Shown piece by piece: positions 25,798-43,211 of a DNA stretch of 45,624 nucleotides; the stretch's first letter is position 1; every line of letters begins with the position of its first letter. The notes under the pieces were generated by a model. It had not been told where the DNA came from. It did not search any database and worked only from the letters and a program-made list of their open reading frames with translations. The translations under genes and the position numbers were made by a program. Source of the DNA: Verrucomicrobiota bacterium (GTDB taxonomy: Bacteria; Verrucomicrobiota; Verrucomicrobiia; Limisphaerales; SXTU01); assembly GCA_016871445.1 (NCBI GenBank), contig VHDH01000018.1, forward strand, positions 1-45,624, in the 5' to 3' direction.

Positions 25798-28467
25798 ATG
25801 CAACCCGCGCTGCGCTCCTCGACGCTTCTAATCGCGGCCCAGCTCGTCGCGCAGTTGTGCGCGGTCACGTCGCTGGCGGCGGATGCGCGGCTCCAACATT
25901 GGTCCGTGCAACCGGTGCGGACGGAGTTCCCAAAGGATGCGTCCGTAGATGGGTTTCTTCGCGCCAAGCTCGCGGAGAAGCGGCTCGCGATGTCACCCGA
26001 GGCGGACCGGCGGACGTTGATTCGGCGGTTAAGCTTCGACCTGCACGGCTTGCCGCCTGCGCCCGAGCGCGTCGCGCGGTTCGTGCAGGACGCGGACCCA
26101 CGGGCTTACGAGAAACTGGTGGAGGAACTGCTTGCCTCGCCCCACTATGGCGAGCGTTGGGCGCGTCACTGGCTCGACATCGCGCACTACGCCGACACGC
26201 ACGGCTTCGAGCGTGACCAACTCCGCCCGAACGCCTGGCGTTACCGCGACTACGTCATCGCGTCGCTGAACGCCGACAAGCCCTACGACCAGTTCCTCCG
26301 CGAGCAAATCGCCGGCGATGTCCTCGCGCCGAACGACGCGGCGAGTGTCATCGCCACCGGCTTCCTCGCGGCGGGGCCTTGGGATTTCGTCGGGCAAGTC
26401 GAGACCAAGAGCGACGTGCTCCGCCGGGCCGCGCGCGCCGGCGATCTGGATGACATGGTCACGCAAGTGATCACCGCCACGATGGGCATCACCATCAATT
26501 GCGCCCGTTGCCACGACCACAAGCTCGATCCCATCACGCAGCAGGAATACTTCAGCCTATGGTCCGTCTTCGCGGGCGTGAAACGCGGCGAACGCAACGT
26601 GAGCGCCGAGGACACCCGCCGGTTCACTGATGAAAAGGCGCGGCTTGGGAAAGCTCTTGCCGCCACGCGCACGCGGATTGCCCGGCTGACCGGCGAAGGC
26701 TTCGAGCTCGCCACGCTTCTCCCCGCTGACTCCGGTATTCAGGTGCAAAACGGCAGCGTCACCAAGGATAAGCTCGGCTACCATCGCGACATCCAAGTCA
26801 ACCGGCTGCAAAAAGTCGAAGCGGTGCCCGGGGTGAAATGGGTCTTCATCCCCGATGGCAAGGGCGAGGTGAACGTTGACTTCAAGTTGCCCGTGTCCGG
26901 CGTGCCCGCCACGAGCGGCCACTTCTGGGACACCATCGCAAACCGCCCGCTGAACGCCCAGCGCAGCACGACGCTGGGCGGCACGGACTTCGCGGCGAAA
27001 GGCCACCGGCTGCTCGCGATGCACGCGAACAGCGGGATCACGTTTGACCTGCCAAAGCTACGCGAGTTGAGCGGACATCAAGCGCTCCGCCTCACCGGCA
27101 TCGTCGGCTTCGGTGCCACGCCCGAGGTCGCCAGTAGCCGCGCGGATTTCACGGTCTTCATCGACGCCACGCTGGCATTCCAAAAGCTCAAGCTCCGCAA
27201 GGACGAAATCGCCGCGCTGGATGTCCAGATCCCTGCCACCGCCAAGACGCTCACGCTCGTGGCGACCGATGGCGGCGACGGCATCGGTAGTGACCTGCTC
27301 TTCATCGGCGATCCCAAACTTGCGCCCCGCGCCGCTGAGTCACGCCTCACCGAGGCCGAGGCGGCGGAACTGCGCAACGCCCGCGCGGAATTGACGAAGC
27401 TCGAAGCGGAACTCAAGAGCTTGGCGGAGCCTGCGAAAGTCTATGCCGTCGTGAGCGACGCGCAGCCGCCCGTCATCAAAGTGCATCGCCGCGGCAACCC
27501 CGAAGACGAGACCATCGCGGCCGCGCCCGGCACGTTTAGCTGGGCCGCCCACGCGAAGGCCGCATTTGGTGAAGAATCCATGCCAGAGGGCGAGCGGCGT
27601 CGCGCGTTGGCCGAGTGGATTACTCACCCCGCGAACCCGCTCACCGCGCGCGTGCTCGTGAACCGCCTTTGGCATCACCACTTTGGCCAAGGCATCGTGG
27701 CCACGCCGAGCGACTTCGGGCTGGGCGGCGAACGTCCGAGCCATCCGGAGTTGCTCGACTGGCTCGCGAGCGAATTCCACCATAGCGGTTGGTCAGCAAA
27801 ACACATTCACCGGCTCATCGTCACCAGCGCAGTTTATCGGCAGAGTAGCTCGACTTTCCAAAGTCGAGTTCCCCGGACGCCAAAGCCACTCGACATTGGA
27901 ATGTCGAGCTACGTTGACGCCTCGAACCGCCTCCTGTGGCGGCAAAACCCGCGTCGCCTCGATGCCGAGTCCACTCGCGACGCCGTGCTTGCCGTCAGCG
28001 GACAACTCAATCTCGCCGCCGGCGGCCCCGGCTGGCGCGACTTCAAATACACGGAGGCCTACGCGCCAATTTACGACTACGTCACCGCCGACACGCCGGA
28101 GCTGACGCGGCGCAGCATCTACCGGTTCGTCGTCCGCACCACACCGCACCGCTTTCTTACCACGCTCGACTGCCCCGACCCCGCGAACTTCACCCCCGCC
28201 CGCACGCAGACCACCACGGCGTTGCAGGCGCTCACGCTCACCAACAGCGAGTTCATGCTGCGCCAAGCCCGCCACTTCGCCGCGCGCGTCGAGCGCGAGG
28301 CCGTTAGCAGCCTCAGCCCTCAAGTGACCCGCGCCTTCCAACTCGCCTTCGCCCGCACGCCCACCGAAGCCGAGGCGCAAGCTGCCATCACCCTCGTCCG
28401 CACCGATGGCCTCTTCGCCCTCTGCCGCACGCTGCTCAACGCAAATGAGTTTATGTATGTGGATTGA
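25798..28467 (+). CDS. PSD1-A: DUF1549/DUF1553 cytochrome-like exported protein
   Basis: The 889-residue product has a signal peptide (about 1-28). DUF1549 covers about residues 45-270, with TLIRRLSFDLHGLPP, SPHYGERWARHWLDIAHYAD and the heme c-type motif CARCHDHKLDP (C235, C238, H239). Residues 310-480 form an NPCBM/jelly-roll-like sugar-binding insert. DUF1553 follows (LVNRLWHHHFGQGIV, then HPELLDWLASEF and LDAESTRDAVLAVSG) and ends in NEFMYVD. These proteins pair with DUF1501 proteins throughout the PVC group; their reaction is unknown, though a periplasmic redox role in polysaccharide breakdown is often supposed. An insert of about 26 residues between YRQ and NRLLWR is encoded by a palindromic element (27845-27912). 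DUF1501-A starts 3 bp after the stop. Confidence 0.88.
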   Translation: MQPALRSSTLLIAAQLVAQLCAVTSLAADARLQHWSVQPVRTEFPKDASVDGFLRAKLAEKRLAMSPEADRRTLIRRLSFDLHGLPPAPERVARFVQDADPRAYEKLVEELLASPHYGERWARHWLDIAHYADTHGFERDQLRPNAWRYRDYVIASLNADKPYDQFLREQIAGDVLAPNDAASVIATGFLAAGPWDFVGQVETKSDVLRRAARAGDLDDMVTQVITATMGITINCARCHDHKLDPITQQEYFSLWSVFAGVKRGERNVSAEDTRRFTDEKARLGKALAATRTRIARLTGEGFELATLLPADSGIQVQNGSVTKDKLGYHRDIQVNRLQKVEAVPGVKWVFIPDGKGEVNVDFKLPVSGVPATSGHFWDTIANRPLNAQRSTTLGGTDFAAKGHRLLAMHANSGITFDLPKLRELSGHQALRLTGIVGFGATPEVASSRADFTVFIDATLAFQKLKLRKDEIAALDVQIPATAKTLTLVATDGGDGIGSDLLFIGDPKLAPRAAESRLTEAEAAELRNARAELTKLEAELKSLAEPAKVYAVVSDAQPPVIKVHRRGNPEDETIAAAPGTFSWAAHAKAAFGEESMPEGERRRALAEWITHPANPLTARVLVNRLWHHHFGQGIVATPSDFGLGGERPSHPELLDWLASEFHHSGWSAKHIHRLIVTSAVYRQSSSTFQSRVPRTPKPLDIGMSSYVDASNRLLWRQNPRRLDAESTRDAVLAVSGQLNLAAGGPGWRDFKYTEAYAPIYDYVTADTPELTRRSIYRFVVRTTPHRFLTTLDCPDPANFTPARTQTTTALQALTLTNSEFMLRQARHFAARVEREAVSSLSPQVTRAFQLAFARTPTEAEAQAAITLVRTDGLFALCRTLLNANEFMYVD
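27845..27912. repeat. 68-bp double-hairpin element inside PSD1-A
   Basis: Two perfect hairpins, each with a 9-bp stem and 2-nt spacer, lie in the coding sequence: CTCGACTTT/AAAGTCGAG at 27849-27868 and CTCGACATT/AATGTCGAG at 27889-27908. The outer ends GTAGCTCGAC and GTCGAGCTAC are also perfect inverted repeats of 10 bp. The element is translated in frame as part of the extra loop between YRQ and NRLLWR. Confidence 0.85.
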
Positions 28468-31671: not shown

Positions 31672-34458
31672 ATGAAACTTCTCGCCACTGTTTTGAGCCT
31701 CGCGGCCTTGGCCGTGCCTGCGGAAGCCGCGTCCGCGAAGCCCAGCTCCACCGACTGGTGGTCGCTGAAGCCGTTGGTGCGGCCGGCGGTTCCTCCAATC
31801 GGCAACCAGCAATCGGCCACTGGCAATCCGATTGATGCCTTCATCCTGGCCAAACTCCGCGAGCAGAAGCTCACGCCTGCACCCTCCGCTGACCGGGGCA
31901 CGCTGATCCGCCGGTTGACCTTTGATTTGCACGGCCTGCCGCCCTCGCCGGAGGAGGTGGACCAGTTTGAACAGGATGCCGCCCCGCAAGCTTATGAGCG
32001 ACTGGTGGAGCGACTGCTCGCCTCGCCGCGCTACGGCGAGCGCTGGGCGCGGCACTGGCTGGACGTGGTCCACTACGGCGAGTCGAACGGCTTTGGCATG
32101 GATCGACCCCGATTGCAGGCGTGGCCATATCGGGACTACGTCATCGCCGCCCTGAACGCCGACAAGCCCTATGCCCGCTTCGTTCACGAGCAACTCGCAG
32201 CGGATGCGATGTTCCCCGAGGATGCATCGCTCGTGCCCGCGCTCGGCTTTGCGGCGGCGGGACCGTTCAACCAGAGCGCGCTGGTCGAGCAAGTGGATGG
32301 CACGGACTGCAAGCGCATGGCACTGAACCTGGACCGCGACGACATGGTCGCGAGCACCGCCAGCACATTTCTCAGTCTCACGGTGCATTGTGCGCGCTGC
32401 CATGAGCACAAGTTCGACCCGATCTCCCAGCAAGATTACTACCGGCTTCAGGCGGTCTTCGCGGGCGTGGGCCGCGCTGAACGGACCTTCGATGCGGACC
32501 CGCAAGTGCGCGTCCGGCGAACCGGACTGCGGGGGCTCATCGCGGACTTGGAGAAAAATCCCGATGCCCATCCCCCGACCGCTGCCGAGCGCGGTTCGCT
32601 CGCCACCGCGCAAAGGGCCTGGGAGAAGTCGCTCGCCGCGCAGGCGGCGAACTGGACTCCGCTGTCCATCGAGCAAGTCACGTCCACGAACAGCACGACC
32701 ACATTCACCAAGCTGGACGACGGCTCGTGGCTGGCCACCGGCACTGCAGCGGACAAGGATGTTTACACAGTGCGAGCGCGGGTCACCTTGCCCGCGATCA
32801 CCGCCCTGCGGCTCGAAGTGCTGCCGGATGACCGCCTGCCTGCCCGTGGGCCTGGTCGGCAGGACAACGGTAATCTGCATCTCTCGGAAATCCGTGTGAG
32901 TTTGGCCGGGACAAATGTCACCGAAAAACCCAAGCCGATCGCCCTGCGCAACGCCTCGGCAGATTTCAACCAGGCGGGCTGGAGCATTGAACGCGCCTTG
33001 GACGGCAAGCCGGAGACGGCGTGGGGCATCCATCCGCAGGTCGGCAAACCGCATCACGCGGTCTTCGAGCTGGCTCAGCCGTCCGCCGTAACCAATGGCG
33101 TGACCTTGATCGTGCAACTGGATCAACTGCACGGCCAGCGACACCTCATCGGGCGCTTCCGTCTTTCGGCAACGGACAAGCCCCAGCCCGTGCGGGCACC
33201 CACCCTGCCAGTGGAACTGCTCGCCAAGCTGGCCCGTCCGGACGCCGAACGCACCGAGGCGGAGCGCAAGCAGCTCTTCGACCTTCATCGGCTGGTGTAT
33301 TTGCGGGAACAGCTCGCCCAGCTTCCCGCCGAGCAGCGAGTCTGGGCCATCGCCGCGGACTTCGCGCCACTGCGCAATTACAAGCCCACGAAGGAACCGC
33401 CGCCTATCGCGGTGTTGCACCGCGGCGACATCAAACAGCCGCTGGCCACAGTCGGTCCCGGCGCGCTCGCTGTGGTGGGCACGCTGCCGGCGGAATTCGC
33501 GCTGCCGAATGCGCAGGACGAAGCCGCCCGCCGGGCCGCGCTGGCCCGCTGGATCACGGCTCCGGAGAATATGCTGACCTGGCGCAGCATTGTGAACCGC
33601 GTCTGGCACTGGCACTTCGGTCGCGGCCTCGTGGATACCCCGAACGACTTTGGCCGCATGGGTTCGTTGCCCACGCACCCGGAATTGCTGGACTGGCTGG
33701 CCGTCGAGTTTCGCGACAGCGGCGGCTCACTGAAGCAGTTGCACAAGCTCATCGTGAGCAGTGCGACGTATCGGCAGAAATCCAGTATTCAGTCTTCAGT
33801 GTCCAGTGTTCAGACCGGAAGGAGCCCGGCTCCGGCTTCACTCACTGAACACTGGAAACTGAATACTGAATACTTTCAGCGTGCCGCAGCTACGGACGCG
33901 AGCAACGCCTACCTCTGGCGTATGAACCGTCCGCGGCTCGATGCTGAGGCCTTCCGCGACGCGCTGCTTGCAGCCAGCGGCAAGCTGGATCTCACCATGG
34001 GCGGACCCTCGGCCATGCAGTTCAAGTTCGATGACCCGAACAAGGAAGTTGCCCCCCGCGTGGATTACGCCGCCTTCGACCCTGACAACCCGGCCAGCTA
34101 CCGGCGCAGCGTCTATCGCTTCCTGTTTCGCAATTTGAACGACCCGCTGCTGGAAGCGTTGGACGCCGTGGACCCCTCGCTTTCCACGCCCATAAGGAAC
34201 TCGACCATCACGCCGCTCCAAGCGCTGTCACTTTGGAACAACCGGTTCGTCCTGCGCCAGTGCGAGCACCTCGCCGCGCGCGTCGAGCGGGAGGCAACCG
34301 GTCTCGAAGCCCAGATCACCCGCGCCTTCCGCCTGCTCTGCACTCGGGCTCCCTCGCGCGAGGAAATGGCACTGCTCACCGAGCACGCCCACCAGCATGG
34401 CCTGGCTCATGCCTGCCGGGTGATGGTGAATTTGAACGACTTCCTGTTTGTGAACTGA
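31672..34458 (+). CDS. PSD1-B: DUF1549/DUF1553 exported protein with discoidin-like insert
   Basis: The 928-residue product has a short Sec signal (TVLSLAALAVPAEAA). DUF1549 spans about 55-270 with TLIRRLTFDLHGLPP, SPRYGERWARHWLDVVHYG and the heme motif CARCHEHKFDP (C240, C243, H244). Residues 330-510 hold a F5/8-type (discoidin-like) insert: NLHLSEIRVSL, then WSIERALDGKPETAWGIHP. DUF1553 follows with IVNRVWHWHFGRGLVDTPND and ends NDFLFVN. Two stretches are encoded by repeats: the linker IGNQQSATG before NPIDAF (31796-31830) and about 40 residues between YRQ and LWRMNR (33784-33874). Its first 60 or so codons share 68 nearly identical bases with PSD1-C. DUF1501-C starts 6 bp after the stop. 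Confidence 0.88.
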   Translation: MKLLATVLSLAALAVPAEAASAKPSSTDWWSLKPLVRPAVPPIGNQQSATGNPIDAFILAKLREQKLTPAPSADRGTLIRRLTFDLHGLPPSPEEVDQFEQDAAPQAYERLVERLLASPRYGERWARHWLDVVHYGESNGFGMDRPRLQAWPYRDYVIAALNADKPYARFVHEQLAADAMFPEDASLVPALGFAAAGPFNQSALVEQVDGTDCKRMALNLDRDDMVASTASTFLSLTVHCARCHEHKFDPISQQDYYRLQAVFAGVGRAERTFDADPQVRVRRTGLRGLIADLEKNPDAHPPTAAERGSLATAQRAWEKSLAAQAANWTPLSIEQVTSTNSTTTFTKLDDGSWLATGTAADKDVYTVRARVTLPAITALRLEVLPDDRLPARGPGRQDNGNLHLSEIRVSLAGTNVTEKPKPIALRNASADFNQAGWSIERALDGKPETAWGIHPQVGKPHHAVFELAQPSAVTNGVTLIVQLDQLHGQRHLIGRFRLSATDKPQPVRAPTLPVELLAKLARPDAERTEAERKQLFDLHRLVYLREQLAQLPAEQRVWAIAADFAPLRNYKPTKEPPPIAVLHRGDIKQPLATVGPGALAVVGTLPAEFALPNAQDEAARRAALARWITAPENMLTWRSIVNRVWHWHFGRGLVDTPNDFGRMGSLPTHPELLDWLAVEFRDSGGSLKQLHKLIVSSATYRQKSSIQSSVSSVQTGRSPAPASLTEHWKLNTEYFQRAAATDASNAYLWRMNRPRLDAEAFRDALLAASGKLDLTMGGPSAMQFKFDDPNKEVAPRVDYAAFDPDNPASYRRSVYRFLFRNLNDPLLEALDAVDPSLSTPIRNSTITPLQALSLWNNRFVLRQCEHLAARVEREATGLEAQITRAFRLLCTRAPSREEMALLTEHAHQHGLAHACRVMVNLNDFLFVN
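31796..31830 (+). repeat. CAATCGG-type heptamer tract in PSD1-B
   Basis: Five units of 7 nt: CAATCGG, CAACCAG, CAATCGG, CCACTGG and CAATCCG. They encode a linker between the signal/WWSLKPL region and DUF1549. PSD1-C has a matching tract at 36110-36144 in the same place. Confidence 0.8.
33784..33874. repeat. 91-bp palindromic heptamer element inside PSD1-B
   Basis: The left arm 33784-33813 and right arm 33845-33874 are inverted repeats of 30 nt matching at 28 positions. Each arm is itself a run of four 7-nt units (CAGTATT, CAGTCTT, CAGTGTC, CAGTGTT on the left; CTGAACA, CTGGAAA, CTGAATA twice on the right). The 31-nt centre contains a small hairpin GGAGCC-C-GGCTCC (33821-33833). All of it is translated in frame. 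Confidence 0.9.
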
Positions 34459-35916: not shown

Positions 35917-38766
<2,850 letters not shown>

Positions 38767-40315: not shown

Positions 40316-41497
40316 CTACCGGGGTTCGAGCGCAGCCAGCCGCACGGTGAGCGCGTCGAAGCCGTGGGTGCGTTCGTAAGTGGCCTCGCGCTCCACGTGC
40401 GGAGTGGCCGCGAGGATCTCGATGCCGGCGACGCGATCGCACAACGCCTGCAAGAGCGTGCGGACAATTAGCCGCGCGTGCGGCGCACCCAGGCACAGGT
40501 GCGTGCCGAAGCCAAAGGCGAGGTGTGGGTTCGGCTTGCGGTCGAGGCGAATTTCCGTCGGCGCTTCGAAGACGGTTTCATCGAGGTTCGCCGAGGCCCA
40601 CGCCAGTGAAGCCCGGCCGCCGGGCGGCACCTTCACACCGTGAACATCCGTCTCCACCGGACACACGCGGCCGATGTGCGTGAGCGGCATGAAGACGCGA
40701 AAGAATTCCTCGCCGGCGTGGACGATGCGGCGCGGGTCGGCGCGGAGGTATACGAGCGCCTCGGGATTGCGGCCGAGATAGGCGAGCGCGTTCGCGATGC
40801 TGTAGATGATGGTGTCGCGACCGCCGGCAAAGGTGAGATTGCCGAACCCCATCATCTCTTCGCGCGTTAGCTTGCGGCCACGATATGTGGCCTTCACGAG
40901 CGCGGTGAAGAGGCTGTCATCGGGCGTGAGGGCGTCGCTGGCCCGCTGCCTTACCTGTGCCTCCGCGAAGTCGAACTGCTGATGCAGATACGACTCCAGC
41001 ACGTTGCCCTTCTTGAACTCGCCGCCGGTCACCTTGAACACATGGATGCCCCAGCCGATCCATACGTCCGCCTCGCGTTCGGGCACGTTGAGCAGATACG
41101 TGAGCGCGCGGGACTGCGCGGGCAGCGCGAACTCGCTGACGACTTCGAGCGATTCGCGGGCGAGCGCCGTGGTGAGCAGTTCATCAATGAGCGCCTCGAC
41201 TTTCGCGATGACCTCCGGCTGCTTGGCGCGTTGGAAGAACGGCTCGACCAGCGCGCGATACTCACCGTGCTCAGGCGGGTTCGTCTCGATGGGCAACTGC
41301 CGCATGGAGCGGACAGCTTCCTCGGACGGGATGGGCACGCGGAACGGCGCGTCGGAGCTGAACTTCTGCCAATCCTTGGCCGCCTCGCGCACATCGGCAT
41401 GGCGGAGAATCATCGGCAGCGATTCGCCCTGAAACGGGCAGCGCAGCACGCCGTCTTTGGCGCGCGCGTCGCGGAAAGGGTCAGTGATGTGTTCCAT
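40316..41497 (-). CDS. Cytochrome P450
   Basis: The 393-residue product has no membrane anchor, as usual for bacterial P450s. The I-helix oxygen-activation motif is AGGRDT (224-229; the common form is AGxDT/AGHET), the K-helix ExxR is EEFFR (E264, R267), and the heme-binding loop is FGFGTHLCLGA with C335 as the thiolate ligand. RLPIETNPPEHGEYR is the typical C-helix region. It should hydroxylate a small hydrophobic substrate with electrons from a ferredoxin and reductase; neither partner is in the window. The family (CYP number) cannot be told from sequence reading. It points the same way as the DUF1552 gene but is separated by 340 bp that hold a repeat element. Confidence 0.95.
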   Translation of the reverse strand: MEHITDPFRDARAKDGVLRCPFQGESLPMILRHADVREAAKDWQKFSSDAPFRVPIPSEEAVRSMRQLPIETNPPEHGEYRALVEPFFQRAKQPEVIAKVEALIDELLTTALARESLEVVSEFALPAQSRALTYLLNVPEREADVWIGWGIHVFKVTGGEFKKGNVLESYLHQQFDFAEAQVRQRASDALTPDDSLFTALVKATYRGRKLTREEMMGFGNLTFAGGRDTIIYSIANALAYLGRNPEALVYLRADPRRIVHAGEEFFRVFMPLTHIGRVCPVETDVHGVKVPPGGRASLAWASANLDETVFEAPTEIRLDRKPNPHLAFGFGTHLCLGAPHARLIVRTLLQALCDRVAGIEILAATPHVEREATYERTHGFDALTVRLAALEPR

Positions 41498-41837
41498 GAA
41501 GTCTGGGTCCGGGGCTGCTGGTTAAGATGACTCGCTGATCGAAAGTGCCGTTCTACCCGTGCGGCTGCTACGCTGCAACTGCCACGAACCCGTCCGCGAG
41601 GAGATAGACTGCCGCCCCGCGCTGCCAGCCTCAGCCGGAGCGATTCAGATGGATCCGGGTGGAACGGCCAACTTGGCCGTTCTCGGCGGCAACTTGCCGC
41701 CGAGTTTCGGCACAGCGAACGCTCGAATTGTTTGGAGCGCGCTGGGCGCAGTGAGAGCGGCTGGCGGGTCGCCCGCCGCAACGGGCCGGTGGCCCGTTCC
41801 ACTCAGCAGCACAGTGGATCGCTTCGGCTGCGGCCAC
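41498..41837. other. 340-bp intergenic region containing a hairpin-rich element
   Basis: This gap separates the DUF1552 gene from the P450 gene, both on the reverse strand. The P450 promoter should lie in 41498-41650, but I see no clear boxes. 41659-41802 is occupied by the hairpin-rich element. The open frames through it give low-complexity, arginine- and proline-rich peptides and are not genes. Confidence 0.65.
41659..41802. mobile_element. 144-bp non-coding element with terminal inverted repeats and four hairpins
   Basis: The ends GTGGAACGG (41659-41667) and CCGTTCCAC (41794-41802) are perfect 9-bp inverted repeats. Inside are four stems: GAACGGCCAA/TTGGCCGTTC (41662-41682), CTCGGCGGCAA/TTGCCGCCGAG (41682-41704), GGCGGG/CCCGCC (41763-41777) and AACGGGCC/GGCCCGTT (41780-41798). 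It codes for nothing plausible. The form is that of a non-autonomous palindromic element (REP/BIME-like or MITE-like). I see no target-site duplication. Confidence 0.65.
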
Positions 41838-43211
41838 CTACGCGTTGACCATCATCTCCTTGATCTGCTTGGTCGCGATGCCGATGGGGCGGTCGAGGGG
41901 CACGCCCATGCAGGCGAGCAACGTGGTGAGCAGGTCGCCTTGGTTGCCCTTCACGTCGGCGATGAAGCGGCCGGTCTTGAGTGAGCCGCCACTTTTGCCG
42001 GCGATGATGAAGGGCAGGTTTTCGCGCGTGTGCTTGTTGCCGTCCTCGAGGCCGGTGCCCCACATCATGATGCAGTTGTCGAGCAGCGTGCCGTCGCCTT
42101 CGCGCAGGGTGGCCATCTTCTTCACCATGTGGGCGAACTGCTCGATGTTGAAGGCGGTGATCGCGGCGACCTTGCGGACCATTTCCGCGTCTTGGTTGTG
42201 GTGCGTCTGGGAGTGGTGTTCGTTCTTGAAGCCCAGCTCGGGATAAGAAACGCCGTTGGGGGTGGAGCCGATGTAGGTGCTCACGCGCGTGGTGTCCGTC
42301 TGGAACGCGAGGACGTTCAAGTCGCACATCACCTGCATGTATTCGCTGCGCTTGTCGCCCTCGGGAATCTTGATCTCGATGGTCGGGGAGTCGGCGTCGT
42401 TCCGCTTCGTGGAGCTCACGCCGGCCTTGGCCAGGGCCGCTTCCTTCTGGCGATGCTCGATGGCGGCAATGCGCCGCTCCACGGAGCGCACGCTGTCGAG
42501 ATACTCGTCGAGCTTCTCCTGGTCGGTCTTGGGCAAGCGCCGGCGCAGATCACGCGCACCGCCGAGCACGAGGTCAAGCATCCGGCGGTCGAGGGGATTG
42601 GCCTGCGTGGGCTGGCCGGGCTGGTTGGTCTTGCCGAAGAGGCGGTTCAACACGACTCGCGGGTTGATCTCAGCGGGCAGCGGTTGGGTCGGCGAACTGA
42701 AACTGCAATGGGTGTAGTAGCCCTCGTTGAGCCCTTCCTGATTCTCCTTGTGCGTCTGCGGCATCGTGGCGAGTTCCAGCGACGGCAGCGAGGTGAAGCC
42801 ACCGACGTAGTTCGCCGCGATCTGGTCGGCGGAGATGCCGATGTTGATGCGGTTGCGCTGGCGGGCATCGGGCAGTTTGGCGGTGAGCCAAGTGGAGAGT
42901 TCCAGTGCGTGCGGGGCTCCGTTGAAGGGCGCGATGGCCACGCCGGAGATGCCTTTGACGAGCAGGCACTGGTCGAGCACGGGCCGCAGCGATTCCAGCG
43001 CGGGCGGCGGGCTGGTGAGAAAACTCCCGGGCGACTTGGGCCAGAACTGATCCATGATGACGCCGTGCGGCATATACATGAAGGCGAGGCGCACGGGCGG
43101 CTTGGCGGCCTTGGCTTCCGCCCAACCCATGGTTTCCAGCAGTGGCAGGGCGAGTGTGGCTCCGAGTCCTTGGAGGCAGGCGCGGCGCGAGAGGCGGAAT
43201 CTATTTTGCAT
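41838..43211 (-). CDS. DUF1552 protein with Tat-type leader
   Basis: The 457-residue product starts with a twin-arginine-like leader ([20 protein letters not shown]). DUF1552 blocks follow: [51 protein letters not shown], and the late HHSQTHH motif. Pfam names the family HXXSHH; here the Ser is replaced by Thr (HSQTHH), while the neighbouring paralogue has the standard HDASHH. The end [20 protein letters not shown] is also conserved. Function is unknown; the fold is probably related to DUF1501. Its start codon lies inside the end of the DUF1592 gene (11-bp overlap), so translation is coupled. Confidence 0.88.

Follow-up and report, generated by a model that had tools for sequence, protein, structure and literature searches.

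The hairpin cluster and its setting

The window, the whole 45,624-nucleotide stretch of DNA analyzed here, lies on a contig of a 3.49-Mb genome made up of 236 contigs. Between two of its minus-strand genes, a putative DUF1552 gene and a putative P450 gene (names taken from the original prediction and the protein sequences, without profiling), it carries the cluster of hairpins detailed in Table 1. The original prediction had placed this cluster at 41659-41802 and had read it as a noncoding, nonautonomous mobile element. The 9-bp inverted repeat claimed for its termini is perfect, GTGGAACGG (41659-41667) matching CCGTTCCAC (41794-41802) exactly, and the four strong stems are real, all of them being conserved in other copies. 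The weak stem predicted in the middle is not conserved in other copies. Folded as DNA, 41640-41820 reaches -60.5 kcal/mol (z -6.0); folded as RNA, it reaches -97.2 kcal/mol (z -4.6). None of 200 shuffles was as good in either case. The search for abutting hairpins with stems of at least 9 bp covered the genome's first 445,624 bases, and hairpins 1 and 2 are the sole such pair there. Gene calling placed no gene within the element interval, which is crossed by chance open reading frames (ORFs) only, consistent with the claimed lack of coding capacity.

Table 1. Positions in the window of the element, its component parts, and the neighboring genes
Feature	Position	Strand	Details
Putative P450 gene	start 41497	minus	One neighbor of the element
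Left target-site duplicate position	41631..41633		TCA; right side 41829-41831 = TGC
Whole element, outer TIR to outer TIR	41634..41828	+	195 bp; consensus drop outside arms and TIR match
Left outer TIR	41634..41651	+	GCCGGAGCGATTCAGATG; 17/18 positions fit relaxed degenerate consensus
Inner 9-bp inverted repeat, left	41659..41667	+	GTGGAACGG; consensus of copies TCNGGGTGGAACGG
Hairpin 1	41662..41682	+	GAACGGCCA-ACT-TGGCCGTTC; stem 9 bp, loop ACT
Hairpin 2	41683..41703	+	TCGGCGGCA-ACT-TGCCGCCGA; stem 9 bp (10 bp with flanking C and G), loop ACT
Weak middle stem	41713..41744	+	Predicted in window copy only; inside variable middle (about 41716-41755)
Hairpin 3	41757..41779	+	GCGGCTGGCG-GGT-CGCCCGCCGC; stem 10 bp, one T-C mismatch in window copy, loop GGT
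Hairpin 4	41780..41798	+	AACGGGCC-GGT-GGCCCGTT; stem 8 bp, loop GGT
Inner 9-bp inverted repeat, right	41794..41802	+	CCGTTCCAC
Right outer TIR, decayed	41811..41828	-	ACAGTGGATCGCTTCGGC on + strand; 13/18 positions fit same relaxed consensus
Putative DUF1552 gene	stop at 41838	minus	Other neighbor of the element

The element lies 9 bp past the DUF1552 stop codon. An effect on transcription of the P450 gene had been suggested from position only; neither a promoter-like nor a terminator-like site was found at the element, and the suggestion gained nothing. A search of Rfam with 41000-42400 returned no match at E<=1. Relatives in the named collection are Verrucomicrobia MAGs, including Limisphaerales and Pedosphaera. 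The gene order flanking the window element was not found among them, and the neighbors of the P450 gene differ in all relatives seen, so the search for a syntenic empty site via P450 was dropped; the DUF1552 and P450 genes are not adjacent there.

Copies, outer ends, and target sites

BLAST against the window's own genome recovered one full copy plus fragments at chance level, and a covariance model run over 1.22 Mb (roughly one-third of that genome) detected no further copies. Congeners carry dispersed copies. The core is present at full length (141-150 nt) in at least 30 copies in G007, where at least 36 matches were obtained at E<=1e-4 from the 40 candidates scored out of 79; the majority are full length, at 78 to 93% identity. 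Other congeners yielded seven matches (G006), four (G002), and two each (G009 and G010), and five gave none. G054, a genome of another family, has 20 matches at E<=0.01, and full-length copies were found in G002, G006, G010, and G054 besides G007. Matches are present in 37 of the 320 genomes of the order. In a phylum sample of 387 genomes, the sole matches were the window's own genome and a partial one of 42 nt. Plasmids and phages held no match to the element, and the exact terminal inverted repeat (TIR) described below occurs three times in viral contigs, never as a pair. Genes around the copies were called by a simple codon-usage method: no copy of the 52 lies inside a gene, all aligned copies being intergenic, and 39 of 47 sit between same-strand genes. 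They occur in both orientations relative to genes, often just past a stop codon. The cluster is a member of a repeat family scattered between genes within one order of Verrucomicrobia.

Alignment of the 52 copies with their flanks revealed an outer inverted repeat, GCCGGAACSATKCAGTTG, that bounds the element at a fixed distance. Flanks are alignable only to about 25-26 bp beyond the core, and in 28 G007 copies the mean per-position consensus is 56-62% in the outer arms and 38-42% just outside the element. Left and right arms within one copy are more alike than arms between copies (permutation p 0.001). Because conservation across copies extends to this outer repeat, 41659-41802 is too narrow: these are inner limits, and the true element spans about 41634-41828, each end lying some 25 bp beyond the earlier limit. 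The window's left TIR has three mismatches to the strict 18-mer GCCGGAACGATGCAGTTG. Allowing up to two mismatches, G007 has 79 occurrences of this arm, G015 45, G012 19, G037 12, G054 9, and the window's own genome 6; the reversed control pattern gave 0 in G007, G015, and G012 and 0 or 1 across the genomes counted. At a spacing of about 190 bp, many arms form pairs that enclose unrelated interiors, e.g., AGCCACGGATGGAACACGG and CTTGAACCACAAAG, and 43 of 68 TIR pairs measure 190-199 bp. Some puzzling repeats in Limisphaerales assemblies, such as CCACGGATGGAACACGG in G007, are interiors between these same ends. Insertion of the core into an older 52-bp palindrome was considered and set aside, since none of the arms listed paired at a distance of about 50 bp. 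In G015 (L333, L342, and L345), the TIR unit lies inside a larger, near-identical multicopy unit that contains 41-bp tandem repeats and is often found at contig ends.

Identical 3-mers flank the exact arm edge in 25 of the 68 TIR pairs, against 0-4 at other offsets; with permuted right flanks, the mean was 8.3 and the maximum 20 identical pairs in 20,000 trials. All but one of the 25 duplicated 3-mers (24/25) are TNA, almost always within YTNAR, the preceding base being C in 17 and T in 7 (24/25) and the following base G in 19 and A in 4 (23/25). The hairpin core is present in 13 of the 25 pairs with a duplication, in the same TNA context. The window copy, whose right arm is decayed, reads TCA on one side and TGC on the other; it has lost its duplication or never had one. 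The duplication looked for at this locus is thus missing there but present in better-preserved relatives. A copy flanked by TCA on both sides (L260) provides a comparison between genomes: the homologues of its flanking genes adjoin in the window's genome, with no element between them. This is presence versus absence of the element, not a precise empty site, because a different spacer occupies the locus that lacks it; a clean empty site was not encountered.

Conservation of hairpins and decay of ends

In the consensus of the 28 G007 copies, hairpins 3 and 4 are the most conserved (98%), hairpins 1 and 2 reach 95%, and the middle reaches 77%. Over 52 copies, pairing is kept in 96.6, 97.6, 96.9, and 98.6% of cells in hairpins 1 to 4, respectively. 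Fifteen of the 36 pairs across the four hairpins have changed on both sides, including 3 in hairpin 1, 3 in hairpin 2, and 7 of 10 in hairpin 3, and compensatory changes are present in all four. These pairing measures all exceed shuffled and slid controls, the shuffle control being inflated by relatedness. In some genomes, hairpin 3 is swapped as a block for CTGTCGGGCT-GGT-AGCCCGACAG. At matching loci in different species (two copy pairs), hairpins are 97-98% identical, flanks 80-84%, and arms 60-74%.

Many G007 copies have barely recognizable arms and nearly perfect hairpins. Copies were collected by core similarity, so part of this contrast is ascertainment; within single copies it is large nonetheless. 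Hairpins better conserved than ends are unusual for a miniature inverted-repeat transposable element (MITE), and decayed arms alongside near-perfect hairpins count against a plain MITE model. Because conservation is far higher in the hairpins than in the ends, the hairpins were probably kept by selection or by homogenization between copies, two processes that are not separable here. We tentatively suggest, with the balance of probability against it, that several interiors, hairpin-rich or palindromic and unrelated to one another, are carried by a single TIR/TNA-target system of one size (about 190 bp), and that old insertions retain their hairpins when the mobile ends are long decayed. If so, a MITE lineage would seed Limisphaerales intergenic regions with structured modules adopted by the host. 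Should the conservation reflect selection, the elements would be a source of novel intergenic structures in RNA or DNA.

Origin of the element and its possible mover

Taken together, the cluster is very probably the interior of an approximately 195-bp nonautonomous DNA transposon (a MITE) with the TIR GCCGGAACSATKCAGTTG, of 18 bp or more. Members would insert at intergenic YTNAR sites and duplicate the central TNA. The original reading as a nonautonomous mobile element is borne out by dispersed copies of uniform length with inverted ends, by duplications in relatives, and by the element-free orthologous locus. The absence of a family name stands as well: we know of no named family with this TIR, and the literature searched disclosed none with these ends. 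Apparently, this is an undescribed family belonging to a known kind, and its one odd feature is that the hairpins survive longer than the ends. Like the bacterial MITEs NEMIS, ERIC, and Nezha (PMC3733652), the element is short, noncoding, bounded by TIRs, dispersed between genes, and strongly folding. It is unlike them in that its TIR matches no nameable family, its interior consists of four separate conserved hairpins, one TIR is common to several unrelated interiors of near-equal length, and no autonomous partner is known.

Two alternatives start from what is peculiar to this copy and from its hairpins. A local feature unique to the locus, or an assembly or binning artifact, would fit the single full-length copy in the window's genome and a flanking gene order that was not found in relatives, but it is refuted by full-length copies, up to 93% identical, in other species of the genus, and we consider it exceedingly improbable. 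A single copy with a position conserved in relatives had been named as the outcome that would speak against mobility; the copy is indeed single in its own genome, but relatives carry theirs at many other loci, and the argument that a single copy cannot be mobile is overruled by the congeners. A structured regulatory RNA or host-selected module, that is, an old MITE whose hairpins now act in the transcript, e.g., in mRNA 3'-end protection or processing of the upstream gene (here DUF1552), is possible but rather unlikely; it is compatible with a MITE origin, and our estimate of it does not exclude the MITE reading. The conservation of the hairpins over the arms argues for it (95-98% versus 56-62% in G007, with the same contrast in the two cross-species copy pairs), as do the compensatory changes in all four hairpins and the frequent location just past a stop codon, which at this locus is that of DUF1552, 9 bp away. 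The lack of an Rfam match and of a terminator-like site, the restriction to some species, and the two orientations relative to genes argue against it. Moreover, homogenization between copies would likewise conserve hairpins, and a set found by core similarity is biased toward conserved cores.

The remaining alternative is a REP/BIME/REPIN-type element, in which inverted hairpin pairs with the unit GTGG...CCAC would be moved as single-stranded DNA by a REP-associated tyrosine transposase (RAYT). Such elements resemble ours in their inverted hairpin pairs, intergenic position often past a stop codon, and compensated stem changes (PMC3733652 and PMC3116915), and GTAG REPs occur in the verrucomicrobium Opitutus terrae (PMC3733652). 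The two inverted hairpin pairs with a GTGG tetranucleotide foot, their repetitive nature, a core better conserved than the outer arms, and good RAYT-like genes (70-91 bits) in G002, G003, G006, and G007 all fit this type. Nevertheless, the foot is GTGG in nearly all copies, not GTAG, and the RAYT genes are not flanked by the element: the RAYT loci L264-L277 lack the TIR pair, and in G007 a distance of 4.4 kb separates the nearest RAYT from a copy. Furthermore, G003 has RAYTs and no copies, whereas G010 has full-length copies and only weak Y1 matches. Y1 transposition is not expected to produce an outer TIR with target-site duplication, and neither the fixed-distance outer TIR nor the 3-bp TNA duplications would be accounted for. 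The TIR together with the 3-bp TNA duplication is a cut-and-paste MITE signature, not one of REP/RAYT. On the duplication, the TIR, and the RAYT flanks, we rejected this type as improbable.

As to how the MITE moves, the TIR and the TNA duplication point, with roughly even confidence, to an IS5/PIF-Harbinger-like DDE transposase that would act in trans by a cut-and-paste mechanism. Within IS5, the IS1031 subgroup likewise targets TNA. IS5-family and PHIS (PIF-Harbinger, NuwaII) elements share with ours the 3-bp TNA duplication in a CTNAG-like site, the reported target of the NuwaII group of PIF-like transposons being C|TNA|G (PMC4482050); they differ in that NuwaII is eukaryotic, and no transposase is linked to the element's TIR. 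Among transposases of the DDE_Tnp_1 (PF01609) and DDE_Tnp_4 (PF13359) types, no partner with this TIR was found: the TIR is not present at the DDE_Tnp_1 loci of four genomes, which are fragmented MAGs, and PF13359 transposases are absent from the eight genomes searched, hosts of the element included. The partner may be absent from the assemblies examined or have escaped recognition in them. A 1,375-bp arm pair in G007 (L352, 1055-2429) was dismissed as an autonomous copy; by eye, its minus-strand ORF (1101-2063) looks like an IS110-type transposase, and it lies within a MITE that shares this TIR. Overall, the analysis gives the ends, the target, and the range of an apparently undescribed MITE family in a large, mostly uncultured order.

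Other repeats were recorded in the window and in relatives. A GTAG-tagged, head-to-head REP-like dimer lies at 27845-27912 (GTAGCTCGACTTTCCAAAGTCGAG ... CTCGACATTGGAATGTCGAGCTAC), the sole head-to-head pair of its type in 1.22 Mb of its own genome; a very similar pair is found at L051 272-338. At 33784-33874, there is a 30-nt inverted repeat of the TTCAGTGTTCAG type with arms 93% complementary, and this motif has five further occurrences in the own-genome stretches examined. A heptamer repeat, CAATCGGCAATCGG / CAATCGGCAATCAG, runs in frame at 36110-36137 within a 949-amino-acid ORF (35917-38766). Finally, two-hairpin elements with GTAG or GGAG feet occur near P450 genes in other Verrucomicrobia (L056 5396-5493, L094 7627-7672 and 8934-9002, and L050 2919-2982).
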